A stretch of 64,000 nt of DNA from Streptomyces diastatochromogenes (lineage in GTDB: Bacteria > Actinomycetota > Actinomycetes > Streptomycetales > Streptomycetaceae), in assembly GCF_002242805.1 (NCBI RefSeq), contig NZ_MCGQ01000012.1, positions 248,001-312,000 on the forward strand, given 5' to 3'. Positions 59,336 through 64,000 of the stretch are shown one piece after another. The stretch's first letter is position 1. Each line of letters starts with the position of its first letter. The notes below the pieces were generated by a model, which saw only the letters and a program-made list of their open reading frames with translations, did no database searches and had not been told where the DNA came from. The translations under genes were made by a program, and so were the position numbers.

Positions 59336-59530
59336 TCAGTAGCCGCCGTGACCGCCGTGACCGCCGTGGTCACCGTGGTCGCCGTGGTCACCGTGGTCGC
59401 CGTGACGGCCACCGTGGTCGCCATGGTCGCCGTGGTCGTGACGGTCGCCGTGCCCCGAAGAACCGTGGCCCGACGAGTCACCGCCGTGGTCGTGGCGCTT
59501 CGCAGGCATCAGACTGCTGAAGATGGCCAT
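59336..59530 (-). CDS. 64-residue His/Gly/Asp-rich peptide, possible precursor or metal-binding peptide
   Basis: From ATG 59530 with AGGAGG at ideal distance. The first 11 residues are ordinary (MAIFSSLMPAK). The rest is made of HDHGG, SSGHG and (GDH)n units ending HGGHGGHGGY, with 15 His among 64 residues. The dense His spacing suggests binding of Ni, Zn, Cu or Fe. It has no Cys and only four Ser, all before the repeat tract, which argues against a lanthipeptide. First gene of a unit with an ABC exporter and a protein kinase, and with its own promoter. Function unknown. Confidence 0.68.
   Translation of the reverse strand: MAIFSSLMPAKRHDHGGDSSGHGSSGHGDRHDHGDHGDHGGRHGDHGDHGDHGDHGGHGGHGGY
59339..59440 (-). 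repeat. 9-bp tandem repeat in the His-rich peptide gene
   Basis: Units of the form GAC-CAC-GG(C/T), encoding Asp-His-Gly, are repeated in tandem with alternating third bases, so the array is conserved at the protein level. It is prone to copy-number change. Confidence 0.75.
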
Positions 59531-59646: not shown

Positions 59647-60450
59647 TCAGCCGAGCCGCGCCGCCAGCCCTCCGGTGCACCGCACCTCGTCACCCGCCGT
59701 GATCAGCAACGCCTCCACGTCCGGCAGCGACTCCAGCCACGCGAGCCCGGCCCTCGACCCCATCGCGAACGCCGCCGTGGCCCAGCAGTCCACCCACGTC
59801 AGCCGGGGCCCCACCACGGTCACCGCCACCAGGTCCGTCACCGCTGACCTGCCGGTACGCGGATCCACGATGTGGTCGCCCCGCTCCGCCGTACCGGAGG
59901 TCGCCACCGACAGCTCGTCCACTCCGGCCGCCGAGATCACCGCCGCCAGCCCACCGGGGCGCAGCGGATCCGACACCCCGACCCGCCATGGCCGCTGCGG
60001 CTCCGGCGCGCCCAGCAGCTGGACGTCACCGCCCCCGTTCACGCTGACCCCGCACACCCCGTCCACCGCCGCCAGCAGCCGCGCCGCCCGCTCCGCCGAC
60101 CAGCCCTTCACGATCCCGGTCGGATCCAGCGACCCGCGGTACCGGGTGCTGAACCACCCGTCGCTCACCCGCTCCGCCTCGGCCGCAAGCTCCAGCACCT
60201 CGGCCACCTCGGGAGCGCACTGCGCCACGGTCAGCTCGCCGCGGGCCAGCTGCGAGACCTCGCTGTCCTCGCGGTAGGTGGAGAAGAGCGCGTCGACGCG
60301 GTGCAGGCCCGCGACCGCCTCCGCCAAGGCCTGCAGTACCGCACGGGGTTCCCCGCCGCGGACGTCGAAGGAGAAGACGGTCCCCATGACCTCCTCCGCA
60401 TGACGCACCGCGGCGGGAGCTTCAGCCGACTCGGCCACCGTGTCAGCCAC
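59647..60450 (-). CDS. apbE: FAD:protein FMN transferase (ApbE family)
   Basis: A 267-residue enzyme. 'MGTVFSFDVRG' near the N-terminus, 'LDPTGIVKGWSAERAARLL' (the conserved V-K-G), 'VNGGGDVQLLG' and 'HIVDPRTGRSAV' are ApbE signatures, including metal and FAD ligands. It attaches FMN covalently to Thr in FMN-binding domains. No lipobox or signal peptide is visible, so it may act before export or rely on another route. It overlaps the double FMN-binding-domain gene by 8 bases, which supplies the obvious substrate. Confidence 0.9.
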   Translation of the reverse strand: MADTVAESAEAPAAVRHAEEVMGTVFSFDVRGGEPRAVLQALAEAVAGLHRVDALFSTYREDSEVSQLARGELTVAQCAPEVAEVLELAAEAERVSDGWFSTRYRGSLDPTGIVKGWSAERAARLLAAVDGVCGVSVNGGGDVQLLGAPEPQRPWRVGVSDPLRPGGLAAVISAAGVDELSVATSGTAERGDHIVDPRTGRSAVTDLVAVTVVGPRLTWVDCWATAAFAMGSRAGLAWLESLPDVEALLITAGDEVRCTGGLAARLG

Positions 60451-61258
60451 CGGCCTGGTCCAGCGCCGACTGCAGCGACTGCTTGTAGCCGGTGCTGGTG
60501 TAGGTGGCCCCGGAGACGGCGTCGATGTTCGCGGTCCCGGCCGCCACGGCCTCCTGGTTGAGCTTGGGCACGGCGAGCGCGGTCTTCTGGTCGCTGAGTC
60601 CGCCCTTGGGCGCCTGGACCGCGTCCGCCTTGGTGATCTTCCCGTCGCTGACCGTGATCCGGACCTGGACCGTGCCGTACTGGGTCTGGACCGCCTTGCC
60701 GGTGACGGTACGGGCCTGGGCCGCGCCCGATCCGGAGGAGGAGCCGGAGGACGAGCCGGGAGACGACCCTGAAGACGACCCGGACGACGCCTTCATCTTG
60801 TCCAGCGCCGACTGCAGTGACTTCTTGTACCCCGTGCTCGTGTACGTCGCCCCGGACACCGCGTCGATCTGCGCACTCTGCGCCGCCACGGCCTCCTGGT
60901 TGAGCTTGGGCACGGCGAGCGCGGTCTTCTGGTCGCTGAGTCCGCCCTTGGGCGCCTGGACCGCCTCCGCCTTGGTGATCTTGCCGTTCGCGACGGTCAG
61001 CCGTACCTGCACGGCCCCGTACTGGGTCTGCGCCGCGTCTCCGGTCACCGTGCCGGCGGACGCCCCGGCATCCTGCGCTCCGCCCTGCTGACCGCCCTGC
61101 GGCGCCTCCTGCGCCGCCGCCGTCTGCTGCGGTGCCGCGCCCGCGGCCGACGCGGCCGCCGGGTCCGAGGCGGGTTTCAGCGACAGCAGCAGCACGACAC
61201 CGGACACGGTGGCGGCGGTGGCCAGCACGACGCGCCGAATGGGGTGGCTCTTCCTCAT
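60443..61258 (-). CDS. exported protein with two tandem FMN-binding domains
   Basis: A 271-residue protein: one N-terminal membrane helix (about residues 10-30, 'VVLATAATVSGVVLLLSL'), an Ala/Gln/Gly-rich linker, then two nearly identical FMN-binding domains (about 70-160 and 190-270) joined by a Ser/Gly linker. Each ends with 'DAVSGATYTSTGY', the flavinylation motif where ApbE links FMN to the Thr of SGAT. The two domains are so alike that a recent internal duplication is likely. It should carry electrons outside the membrane between the adjacent reductase and an acceptor. Confidence 0.88.
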   Translation of the reverse strand: MRKSHPIRRVVLATAATVSGVVLLLSLKPASDPAAASAAGAAPQQTAAAQEAPQGGQQGGAQDAGASAGTVTGDAAQTQYGAVQVRLTVANGKITKAEAVQAPKGGLSDQKTALAVPKLNQEAVAAQSAQIDAVSGATYTSTGYKKSLQSALDKMKASSGSSSGSSPGSSSGSSSGSGAAQARTVTGKAVQTQYGTVQVRITVSDGKITKADAVQAPKGGLSDQKTALAVPKLNQEAVAAGTANIDAVSGATYTSTGYKQSLQSALDQAGG

Positions 61259-61274
61259 CGCTTGCAGCTCCCGC

Positions 61275-62657
61275 TCACATCTCGAACGACTCGTGGTGGA
61301 TACGCCGTGCGGGGACTCCCGCGCCGCGCAGTGCCTCGTACACCGACTGCGCGAACCCGGGCGGGCCGCACATGAAGACATCGTGGTGATCGATGTCCGG
61401 GATCTTCCGCTGGAGGTTCTCCGCCGAGATGTCCGGCCGCTCGCCCTCGGGGCTGTTGACCGCGTACATCAGCCGGGCGCCGCGCTCCTTGGCGATCGCG
61501 GCCAGCTCGCCCCACAGGGCCAGGTCCTGGGTGGTGTTGGCCCGGTAGAGCAGGGTGATGTCACCGGACGCGCCGGGCAGCGTCTCGAACAGCGCCCGCA
61601 TCGGCGTGATGCCGACCCCGCCCGCGACCAGCAGCACCTTGCCCTTGCTGCGCCGCTGGGCGGTGAGCGCGCCGTACGGGCCCTCCGCCCACACCCGGGT
61701 GCCGGGCGTGAGTTCGCGCAGCCGGGCGCTGTGGTCGCCGATCGCCTTCACCGTGATCCGCAGCATGTCGGGGCGGGGCGCAGCCGACAGCGAGTACGGG
61801 TGCGAGCTGAACCGCATCCCGGGGGCGAGGAACCGCCAGCGGAAGAACTGGCCCGCCTCCGCGCCCATCCGGTGCAGCTTGCGGCCGCCGATCAGCACGG
61901 ACACGATGCCCGGCGTCTCCTCGATCACGGCTGCCACGTGCATACGGTGACGGAGGTTCAGCCGGAGCGGGGTGAGGATCCGGTACCAGACCACGAGCGC
62001 GGTGACGGTGCCGTAGAGCCCGTACCAGAAGGTCTTGGCGGTCGGCTCGACCGCGAAGTCGTTGCCGGAGGTGATCTGGTGCCAGAACGTCAGGAACACG
62101 GCCGCGTACGTGAGCAGGTGGACGTGGTACCAGGTGTCGTACGGCAGCCGGCGGCGGACCGGGCCGATCGACGTCAGGCCGATGACCACGAACAGACCCG
62201 TGCCGATGGCGGCCTTGCCCATGTCCGGCAGCTGGTTGATGGAGTCGATGGTCTGCTGGACGATGTCGCCGAGCGACTTGCCCGCCTGGAGCGCGTACCC
62301 CCACATGGTGAGGAAGACGTGCGCGACGATCAGGGAGAGCGTGTAGCGGCCGCTCATCGCGTGCCAGCGGGCCACCCGGTCGGAGCCGACGCGCCTCTCC
62401 AGCGCCGGTACGCGCGCCATCTGGAGCACGACCAGCGCCATCAGGTAGCCGGCCAGCAGGCCGGTGATCCGGCCGGCATTGAGGATCTTGCCGTTGTCGT
62501 CGGCGATGGACGGGGTGTTGTGCCACCAGAGCCACAGCACGCCCACCGCGCCCGCCCCGACCGCGAGCAGCAGCGGTACGGCCGGGGAGCGGCGCGGGCG
62601 GATGCGGCGCATCGTCTGGCGGCGGGCGGCACGTCCGCCTGCGAGCGTGGTGGTCAC
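61275..62657 (-). CDS. ferric reductase-like transmembrane flavocytochrome with FNR domain
   Basis: A 460-residue protein from GTG 62657 with GGAGGAACC upstream. Six membrane helices (about residues 25-235) carry paired His residues for haem ('ARWHAMSGRY', 'IVAHVFLTMWGY', 'YHVHLLTYAAVFLTFWHQ'). The C-terminal half (about 245-460) is a ferredoxin-NADP reductase domain with 'RFSSHPYSLSAAP' (FAD) and 'LLVAGGVGITPMRALFE' (NADPH). It would pass electrons from cytosolic NADPH across the membrane to the FMN-binding protein 16 bases downstream. Confidence 0.9.
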   Translation of the reverse strand: MTTTLAGGRAARRQTMRRIRPRRSPAVPLLLAVGAGAVGVLWLWWHNTPSIADDNGKILNAGRITGLLAGYLMALVVLQMARVPALERRVGSDRVARWHAMSGRYTLSLIVAHVFLTMWGYALQAGKSLGDIVQQTIDSINQLPDMGKAAIGTGLFVVIGLTSIGPVRRRLPYDTWYHVHLLTYAAVFLTFWHQITSGNDFAVEPTAKTFWYGLYGTVTALVVWYRILTPLRLNLRHRMHVAAVIEETPGIVSVLIGGRKLHRMGAEAGQFFRWRFLAPGMRFSSHPYSLSAAPRPDMLRITVKAIGDHSARLRELTPGTRVWAEGPYGALTAQRRSKGKVLLVAGGVGITPMRALFETLPGASGDITLLYRANTTQDLALWGELAAIAKERGARLMYAVNSPEGERPDISAENLQRKIPDIDHHDVFMCGPPGFAQSVYEALRGAGVPARRIHHESFEM

Positions 62658-62716
62658 GGTTCCTCCGTGGGGACTTGACCCTTGGCCCACAGATACGTGC
62701 CGCATGCGCTGAGTGT

Positions 62717-63175
62717 TCAGAGGCCTGCCGAGTCGAGGGCGGACTGGAGTGACTGGCGGTAACCGTCACTGGTGTAGGTGGCCCCCGAGACCGTGTCGAT
62801 CTGCGCGCTCTGGGCGGCCAGGGCCTCACGCCGCAGCTGGGGCAGGGCGTAGCTGTTGATCTCCTGGTCGCGCGGGTTGTCCTGCGGGTAGCTGACGGCC
62901 GTGACGTCCGTGAGCGTGCCGCTCTTGATGGTCACCCGCACCTGGACCGGGCCCCACCGGGTCTGGACGGTGTCGCCGGTGATGGACTTGGTCCCCGAGC
63001 TGGAACCGGCCGTCGGGCTCGAACTGCTCGACGTCGTGGGTGACTTGGTGCTGGCCGTCGCCAGCGTGGGGCTCGTGTGCGGCTTCAGCGACAGCAGCAG
63101 CACCATCCCGGAGACGGTGGCCGCACTCGCCAGCACGATGCGGCGGAGCGGGCGGTTCTTCTTCAACGCGTGCAC
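62717..63175 (-). CDS. exported single-FMN-binding-domain protein
   Basis: A 152-residue protein, paralogue of the 271-residue one. It has the same N-terminal helix ('RIVLASAATVSGMVLLLSL'), a Ser/Thr linker and one FMN-binding domain ending 'DTVSGATYTSDGY'. GTG 63175 is preferred because GTGAGG lies upstream; GTG 63187, overlapping the reductase stop, is an alternative. It pairs with the second ferric-reductase-like gene. ApbE nearby should flavinylate it at the SGAT Thr. Confidence 0.86.
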   Translation of the reverse strand: MHALKKNRPLRRIVLASAATVSGMVLLLSLKPHTSPTLATASTKSPTTSSSSSPTAGSSSGTKSITGDTVQTRWGPVQVRVTIKSGTLTDVTAVSYPQDNPRDQEINSYALPQLRREALAAQSAQIDTVSGATYTSDGYRQSLQSALDSAGL

Positions 63176-63183
63176 AGAAGGCC

Positions 63184-64000
63184 TCACAGCTCGAACGACT
63201 CGTGGTGGATACGACGGTCCGGGACCCCGGCCGCCCGCAGCGCGCCGTACACGTCCTGGGCGAAGCCGTGCGGACCGCAGATGTAGACGTCGTGGTCGGT
63301 GAGCCCCGGGAAGGTCGCCCGCAGCGACTCGGCCGTGATGCTCGGCCGCTCCCCGCGCGGCCCGTTGAGCGCGTACAGCACCTGCGCGCCGCGCCAGCGG
63401 GCTATCGCCTCCAGCTCGCCGCCCAGCGCCAGGTCCTCGGCACTGCGCGCCCGGTAGAGCAGGGTGACCTCGCCGGGCAGCGTCTCGAACAGCGCCCGCA
63501 GCGGGGTGACGCCGACACCGGCCGCGATCAGCAGGGACCGCTGCCCGGTGGCCCGCTCCGCGGTCAGGGAGCCGTACGGGCCCTCCGCCCACACCCGGGT
63601 GCCCGGCCGCAGCAGCGCCACGGCCGCGCTGTGGTCGCCCAGCGCCTTGACCGTGATCCGCAGCAGGTCCGGGCGCGGCGGCGCCGACAGGGAGTACGGC
63701 GTCGACGTCCAGCCCATGCCCTCGCCGAGGAACCGCCAGCGGAAGAACTGTCCCGGCCGCGCGCCCAGCTCGTCCAGGTGCCGCCCGCGCACGACGACCG
63801 AGTACACGCCTGGTGCCTCCTTCTGCACCGACTCCACCCGCAGCCGGTGCCGCCGGTTGAGCCGGACCGGGGCGAGCACCCGGAACCACAGCACCAGGGC
63901 CGTCACCCCGAGGTACAGCGCGTACCAGACGGCGGTGGCCACCGGCTTGCCGTTGAACTCCTCGCCCAGCGCCAGCTGGTGCCCGAAGGCGAGGAAGACG
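63184..64000 (-). CDS. second ferric reductase-like flavocytochrome (C-terminal part; start beyond window)
   Basis: The visible 271 residues begin inside the haem-binding region ('VFLAFGHQLALGEEFNG') and contain the last membrane segment and a full FNR domain with 'GWTSTPYSLSAPP' (FAD) and 'LLIAAGVGVTPLRALFE' (NADPH). The sequence is collinear with the reductase at 61275-62657 (both end HHESFE-x), so the two reductase/FMN-binding pairs arose by tandem duplication. The gene continues past the right edge on the same strand. Confidence 0.88.
   Translation of the reverse strand, partial: VFLAFGHQLALGEEFNGKPVATAVWYALYLGVTALVLWFRVLAPVRLNRRHRLRVESVQKEAPGVYSVVVRGRHLDELGARPGQFFRWRFLGEGMGWTSTPYSLSAPPRPDLLRITVKALGDHSAAVALLRPGTRVWAEGPYGSLTAERATGQRSLLIAAGVGVTPLRALFETLPGEVTLLYRARSAEDLALGGELEAIARWRGAQVLYALNGPRGERPSITAESLRATFPGLTDHDVYICGPHGFAQDVYGALRAAGVPDRRIHHESFEL

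Follow-up and report, generated by a model that had tools for sequence, protein, structure and literature searches.

What does a bacterium do with two flavocytochromes, three flavin-binding domains and a single enzyme to load them, and how did so duplicated a set of parts arise? This question is raised by a cluster of five genes at one end of a 64,000-nucleotide stretch of Streptomyces diastatochromogenes DNA (hereafter the window; contig NZ_MCGQ01000012.1, positions 248,001 to 312,000). The cluster encodes two reductases (RedA and RedB), two proteins with flavin mononucleotide (FMN)-binding domains (FMN1 and FMN2) and one FMN transferase (ApbE). Judged from its sequence, it is quite probably a two-branch flavinylated electron-export system with a regulated RedA side, shaped by an old duplication of a whole gene unit. 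RedA and RedB would each draw electrons from cytosolic reduced nicotinamide adenine dinucleotide or its phosphate, NAD(P)H, and move them through flavin adenine dinucleotide (FAD) and two b-hemes across the membrane. The reductases would then pass the electrons to FMN domains anchored outside, where one FMN is expected on FMN1 and two on FMN2, all three attached by the single ApbE. Our guess for the final acceptor is an extracellular metal, either iron or copper, with oxygen as the next candidate.

Gene content and predicted electron path

All five genes lie on the minus strand and are transcribed in the order RedA, FMN1, RedB, FMN2, ApbE. The end of the window cuts RedA, and the remainder was taken from the same contig as locus L005, whose coordinates become window coordinates when 57999 is added. 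Gene starts are our own reading of the sequence.

63184..64000, minus strand: RedA, NAD(P)H-dependent flavocytochrome, first copy, 3′ part (Pfam and open reading frame)
62717..63175, minus strand: FMN1, membrane-anchored, one FMN_bind domain (Pfam; start codon inferred)
61275..62657, minus strand: RedB, second flavocytochrome (Ferric_reduct, FAD_binding_8, NAD_binding_1; closest solved fold SpNOX)
60443..61258, minus strand: FMN2, membrane-anchored, two FMN_bind domains, 271 residues (Pfam)
60800..61048, minus strand: FMN2 domain D1, residues 71-153, predicted FMN-Thr138 (codon 60845-60847)
60458..60706, minus strand: FMN2 domain D2, residues 185-267, predicted FMN-Thr252 (codon 60503-60505)
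60882..60964, minus strand: 83-base stretch of D1 identical to D2, probable gene-conversion tract
60540..60622, minus strand: 83-base stretch of D2 identical to D1, probable gene-conversion tract
59647..60450, minus strand: ApbE, FMN transferase without a recognisable signal peptide, 267 residues (Pfam)

Complete RedA (L005:5185-6537, 450 residues) reaches window-equivalent position 64536. RedB is counted as 460 residues from a GTG codon 3′ of GGAGG, and FMN1 as 152 residues from a GTG that most orthologues keep and some exchange for ATG. A sequence-only reading had proposed reductase–FMN pairs with one common ApbE, and the gene order and Pfam domains bear this out. Ferric_reduct (PF01794, above the cut-off) and a C-terminal NAD_binding_1 domain (PF00175) are present in both reductases, FAD_binding_8 is found in RedB, FMN_bind occurs once in FMN1 and twice in FMN2, and the ApbE family is matched as well. 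The motif D..[ST]GA[ST], on whose Thr the related protein SaFMN3 bears its FMN, is kept in FMN1 and in both domains of FMN2.

Four histidines of RedB (104, 118, 185 and 198 in a 465-residue translation) are invariant, being present in 97/97, 97/97, 98/98 and 98/98, respectively, of those rows that have a residue at the position, among 98 aligned rows in which a few genes were read twice. They occur as would be expected for two b-hemes in the placement of a bis-heme cytochrome. An AlphaFold model of RedB, built from 22 sequences and of moderate confidence (mean predicted local distance difference test score, pLDDT, 69.3; predicted template modelling score, pTM, 0.61), has six long helices preceding the FAD domain. 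Its best structural matches, at ranks 1-3, are entries of the Streptococcus pneumoniae NADPH oxidase SpNOX (PDB 8qt6, 8qta and 8qq7), with template modelling scores by query length of 0.66-0.67 for two entries and 0.63 for a mutant. SpNOX also ranks first for RedB in a sequence search of solved structures (E 7e-14). The modelled fold thus resembles that of SpNOX, whereas identity in the structural alignment is 18% and RedB is encoded together with anchored FMN proteins and ApbE. From the RedB histidines, the model and descriptions of the published class (PMC8238504, PMC11334425), we infer the path NAD(P)H to FAD to heme to heme to FMN. A flavin relay, which the sequence-only reading had put forward, is supported as the likely role.

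By its sequence the cluster is a genuine member of a published kind, the ‘MsrQ-like’ flavinylation cluster with a multi-flavinylated protein, and an ordinary one except for an unusually clear regulatory signature. Meheust et al. 2021 (PMC8238504) describe MsrQ-like clusters as widely conserved among Actinobacteria, with 1797 of them in 1468 genomes as printed. They also report clusters combining a multi-flavinylated protein with further FMN-binding proteins, and most published clusters have a reductase with the C-terminal NAD-binding domain PF00175. The present cluster shares with them the six-helix PF01794 cytochrome with its heme histidines, PF00175, and an FMN_bind gene adjacent to apbE. 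It differs in having two reductase–FMN pairs for one ApbE and an adjoining two-component system with a candidate operator.

The closest characterized relative of FMN2 with which we compared it is the crystallised SaFMN3 of S. azureus (Tong et al. 2023, PMC10339131; PDB 8p2a), likewise an anchored multi-FMN protein with highly similar domains and the FMN-Thr motif. D1 matches the second domain of SaFMN3 at 69/83 residues and D2 at 65/83, and the SaFMN3 gene is described with a flanking putative flavin transferase gene, just as FMN2 is flanked by ApbE; SaFMN3 has three domains, FMN2 two. In the same paper, covalent FMN on threonine is reported by electrospray ionization mass spectrometry, and a single potential of -184 mV and a reduced form that reacts with oxygen are given. 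The authors call the natural electron donor unknown and take the single potential, together with flexible linkers, to mean that transfer has no directionality. Because close relatives of SaFMN3 sit directly behind RedB here, we nominate RedB as the donor for proteins of this type. The doubled FMN domain of FMN2 may make a longer relay, as the sequence-only reading had suggested.

To place the cluster among its relatives, named genomes were scanned with RedB. Of the 578 related stretches that the scan returned, the analysis used the best 80, of which 79 are titled Streptomyces and one is titled ‘Actinobacteria bacterium’, so that counts drawn from them lean to near relatives; with L005 they make 81 loci. 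Co-inheritance was counted in the 70/81 loci longer than 15 kb, leaving out 11 shorter ones, and ApbE is present in 70/70 of these. Domains were counted in 73/81 loci, there being no complete FMN2 in L059, L060, L073, L074, L081, L088, L094 and L095. FMN2 has two domains in 60 of these 73 orthologues, three in 11 and one in 2 (L085 and L064). On a quick RedB gene tree, this number must have changed at least 6 times and the presence of RedA at least 11 times. In L086, the second and third domains are identical in DNA. Across the genus more widely, an FMN_bind match was found in 108 of 200 genomes drawn evenly.

A two-component system, its candidate operator and possible acceptors

Divergent from RedA lie a response regulator (L005:6676-7431) with Response_reg and Trans_reg_C domains, and hence of the OmpR/PhoB type, and a sensor kinase (L005:7428-8909) with HAMP, HisKA and HATPase domains. 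Of the 70 full loci, 42 have RedA together with the two-component regulator and 28 have neither; in none does either occur alone. This co-occurrence is new to the present analysis.

The gap between RedA and the regulator carries two direct repeats with an 11-base period, CTCTGAG-N4-CTCTGAG (L005:6587) and CTCAGAG-N4-CTCAGAG (L005:6624), which stand 37 bases apart and are mirror images. An exact repeat pair is present in 36/45 loci that have RedA and the regulator; among the remaining 36 loci only L056 has one, and there the RedA locus is cut by the contig end. If up to one mismatch is allowed, 45/46 RedA loci have a site and 32/46 have both orientations, in contrast with 0/35 RedA-less loci, in which 548,762 bases were covered. 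At the same threshold the source genome (10.5 Mb in 242 contigs) has two sites, both between RedA and the regulator, and the backward control pattern has one. No operator site was found elsewhere in this genome, where sites in the gaps of the 242 contigs could be missed, and the regulon thus gave no lead to the acceptor. Among 17 genomes of our own choosing, including the source genome, 16 have an exact site, which by coordinates is beside RedA in 14/16. Exact repeat pairs also occur in L154, L155, L156 and L166.

The arrangement looks like a dedicated, self-regulating PhoB-type switch with a candidate operator, through whose mirrored halves the two-component system would control both the RedA side and itself. 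Judged by title or the start of the abstract, we found no open-licence paper that treats this operator, its two-component system or cytosolic flavin loading in Streptomyces, which is weak evidence of absence. The letters CTCAGAG appear once each in two papers on Streptomyces regulation among those listed (PMC8346170 and PMC4595836).

The sensor kinase matches a heavy-metal kinase family over its length at 197.8 bits, below the curated cut-off of 292.55 bits. Its presumed extracytoplasmic part contains a conserved acidic loop, DHDGDEHGDTR, whose D.D.D pattern is kept in 44/45 Streptomyces copies. We take this loop to resemble a calcium-binding D.D.D loop, and that the kinase senses a metal ion is a guess.

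These features bear on what the system is for. One reading is assimilatory metal reduction, in which Fe(III) or Cu(II) would be reduced outside the membrane before uptake and the kinase would read metal availability. We hold this to be a real if tentative possibility. The Ferric_reduct domain of the reductases, the full-length match of the kinase to a heavy-metal sensor family and its DHDGDEHGD-like loop are all consistent with it, as is the presence of a VIT1-like iron transporter in 153/1797 published MsrQ-like clusters (PMC8238504). However, no metal transporter was recognised in the open reading frames read beside the cluster, not all of which were run against the family library, and the single location of the operator in the source genome leaves no sign of an uptake gene under common control. 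The subthreshold score of the kinase counts on the same side.

Less likely, in our estimation, is an extracellular oxidase, in which the reductases and FMN domains would pass electrons to oxygen outside the cell and so form peroxide or superoxide there, whether to compete or to scavenge oxygen. The modelled fold of RedB is closest to those of SpNOX and other NADPH oxidases, and oxygen reoxidises reduced SaFMN3, whose authors suggest such a role (PMC10339131). However, a dedicated sensor with an acidic His/Asp loop suits a metal or ion signal better. In addition, reduced flavins commonly react with oxygen, so the reactivity is a general one, and NOX enzymes reduce oxygen at the outer heme, for which extra anchored FMN domains would be needless.

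Two neighbours were considered as clues to the acceptor and not counted as parts of the system. A small His/Gly/Asp-rich protein (MAIFSSLMPAKRHDHGG...) is encoded on the minus strand at window positions 59336-59530, between ApbE and an ATP-binding cassette transporter. By our threshold, a His-rich small protein stands beside the cluster in 11/80 named loci, and the transporter is present in 17/81 loci.

Old duplications of the reductases and of the FMN2 domains

The sequence-only reading had described the reductase–FMN pairs as tandem duplicates. The pairs exist, and their duplication is old: RedA and RedB are 58% identical, and by sequence they are old sister copies. A quick protein tree built from 51 sequences joins the clade of RedA (support 96) to that of RedB (98) at 95, apart from other reductases. 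Related units occur elsewhere. Four genomes of two other sampled actinobacterial families, f15 and f30 (L160-L162 and L166), have just one unit, made up of a divergent two-component system, a reductase, an FMN protein and ApbE, and two f16 genomes (L167 and L170) have two reductase–FMN–ApbE sets with a regulator pair between them. RedA–FMN1 and the regulators lie at a separate place in three Streptomyces genomes (L154-L156), and ApbE was not seen there in the 13 kb covered. The separate clades and these free-standing RedA–FMN1 loci led us to reject a recent tandem duplication of the pairs. The simplest reading of these sequences is that a unit in which the two-component system stood divergent from reductase, FMN protein and ApbE was duplicated long ago in the Streptomyces line, and that differential loss followed. 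The upstream copy would have kept the regulators and lost ApbE, and the downstream copy would have kept ApbE and no regulators.

Several observations weigh against the two-branch reading as a whole. Confidence in the RedB model is only moderate, and since the relatives of SpNOX pass electrons to oxygen themselves, the FMN proteins could be dispensable. None of the genes in the cluster points to an acceptor, in agreement with the sequence-only reading, which had named none for Streptomyces. Locus L038 has RedA without the operator; among the chosen genomes, G156 is without the exact site, and G089 and G138 carry it on another contig and not beside RedA. The kinase match is below its cut-off, the locus counts favour near relatives, and the reductase tree was built quickly, has long outgroup branches and places one Streptomyces reductase (L168) among other families.

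The two FMN2 domains raise the same question of age. That they share long identical stretches, as the sequence-only reading had noticed, is correct: D1 and D2 are identical at 85.5% of bases and 86.7% of residues (72/83), with one identical run of 83 bases, the eighth longest among 60 genes, located in the domain core. However, each domain is closer to its counterpart in S. cellostaticus than to its neighbour in the same protein (94.4% of bases for D1-D1 and 94.4% for D2-D2). In the domain phylogeny, a check named beforehand, the window D1 falls inside a starred set of seven D1 domains, and the window D2 pairs with that of S. cellostaticus at support 89, not starred. The FMN1 domains stand apart in a starred group of their own with 46 rows, including L060, an FMN1 row that the labels missed. 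Because of these domain distances and this quick domain tree, the separation of D1 and D2 is dated by sequence to before the split of the window species from its near relatives.

The likeness of D1 and D2 is also confined to the core, where identity is 97.7% compared with 76.5% and 81.5% in the flanks. A permutation test on 128 polymorphic columns with 5000 shuffles gave an excess identical run in the window gene at p = 0.0002, the floor of the test. Over all genes, p was below 0.001 in 17/60, compared with 0/60 control pairs in which D1 and D2 were taken across species. At p < 0.05 the counts were 35/60 and 9/60, so the weaker threshold is not clean. The long identical stretch is probably the trace of local gene conversion, that is, of concerted evolution rather than a recent copy, and the FMN2 domains would be old paralogues held alike in this way.

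Whether the same event underlies all orthologues is a separate matter. Taken over all orthologues, D1 and D2 do not separate into two clean clades, and in five relatives (L039, L043, L063, L089 and L111) they are nearest neighbours on the tree. Fitting the D1 and D2 labels to the tree takes 15 and 13 changes, a result to be expected from conversion or from separate duplications, so one ancient duplication for all 60 two-domain orthologues is not proven. This pattern, which allows separate later duplications in some lineages, and the 83-base run are what could favour the recent internal duplication that the sequence-only reading had proposed for FMN2. With domain distances, domain tree and conversion test opposed to it, and with 60/73 complete orthologues having two domains, we consider that proposal very improbable.

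Where ApbE acts, and what the cluster means

Flavin transferases are generally placed outside the cytosol. Most ApbEs seem to be secreted according to a 2025 review, which gives Klebsiella and two eukaryotes as exceptions (PMC12052999), and the SaFMN3 paper describes an extracellular, membrane-bound location (PMC10339131). The MsrQ-like survey admitted a cluster only if one or more of its target genes had a signal peptide or lipidation site (PMC8238504), whereas the present ApbE shows none. Its GTG start and the FMN2 stop overlap by 8 bases, and apbE is probably translationally coupled to the FMN gene. We examined 89 ApbE rows from the RedB-scan loci and further loci, reading also the open frame upstream of the start. 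The catalytic part begins 20-61 bases past the FMN gene stop, L060 not being measurable, and no upstream stretch in the 89 rows reaches the hydrophobicity threshold.

A class-wide ApbE sample, likewise read with the upstream frame, gave no signal in 91/92 rows, with L207 exceeding the threshold. These rows are chosen places among the matches listed, and they include three doubled stretches (L173/L145, L174/L254 and L175/L255) and one gene cut by a contig end (L205). As controls we chose 11 plasmid genes from a list, plus the E. coli gene, all read from the annotated start. The hydrophobicity measure flags 4/12 non-actinobacterial controls (E. coli, Hymenobacter, Eleftheria and Treponema) and 0/2 actinobacterial ones. 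Of the 8/12 non-actinobacterial controls left unflagged, one (Marinibacterium) begins with a lipobox-like stretch and is probably annotated too short, and the rest show no signal. We therefore rejected the idea that a signal-less ApbE is an actinobacterial peculiarity.

FMN1 and FMN2 each have one N-terminal hydrophobic helix, a predicted anchor, with basic residues before it and a low-complexity linker after it. In Streptomyces, a twin arginine precedes the helix in 77/77 FMN2 and 46/46 FMN1 N-termini matched, and an invariant lysine follows it; as the entire helix is conserved, the invariant arginines are weak evidence for the twin-arginine translocation (Tat) pathway. Another count, with RR in 139/144, includes broken or mis-picked rows (L060 and L114). 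In a class-wide sample of 48 rows, the motif is RR in 23, KR in 11, RxR in 6, RK in 1 and none of these in 7, where the second hits L219 and L232 are weak and some RR may precede the true start. With RR in 23/48 rows, Tat export was dropped as a class-wide rule and is a candidate route for this branch only.

Because it shows no recognisable signal peptide and would be translationally coupled to the FMN gene, ApbE may work in the cytosol. In actinobacterial MsrQ-like systems, a cytosolic ApbE could load the flavin from cytosolic FAD, and the folded FMN protein could then be exported, by Tat in this Streptomyces branch; we put this forward as a rather doubtful possibility.

The source genome has two further ApbE genes. 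One, on contig C57 (L153), belongs to another full unit, with a divergent two-component system, a reductase, a one-domain FMN protein and an ApbE without a recognisable signal peptide. The other, on contig C39 (L173), matches the Pfam model in one piece and adjoins a Ferric_reduct match; no FMN_bind match of the source genome falls at this place, and the flavin substrate of this ApbE is not obvious. The open reading frame beside it is, as we read it, NuoF-like. A few kilobases from the cluster and outside the window, at L005:10326-11198 (window-equivalent 68325-69197), a 290-residue, probably exported protein is encoded beside argG. It is made up of two repeats, each about 75 residues long and nearly identical to the other, and has no Pfam match.

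The history of FMN2 illustrates that repeat domains can seem freshly duplicated where gene conversion keeps them alike. Cytosolic attachment of flavin, if true, would remove the need for the flavin export that a secreted ApbE requires, and a large group of soil bacteria would then stand as an exception to the usual picture of ApbE acting outside the membrane. For the SaFMN3 family, structurally known and so far an orphan, the cluster offers a specific candidate electron donor and a putative private regulatory switch. Such a switch would mean that the inducing signal could be found with one reporter, and perhaps then the acceptor.

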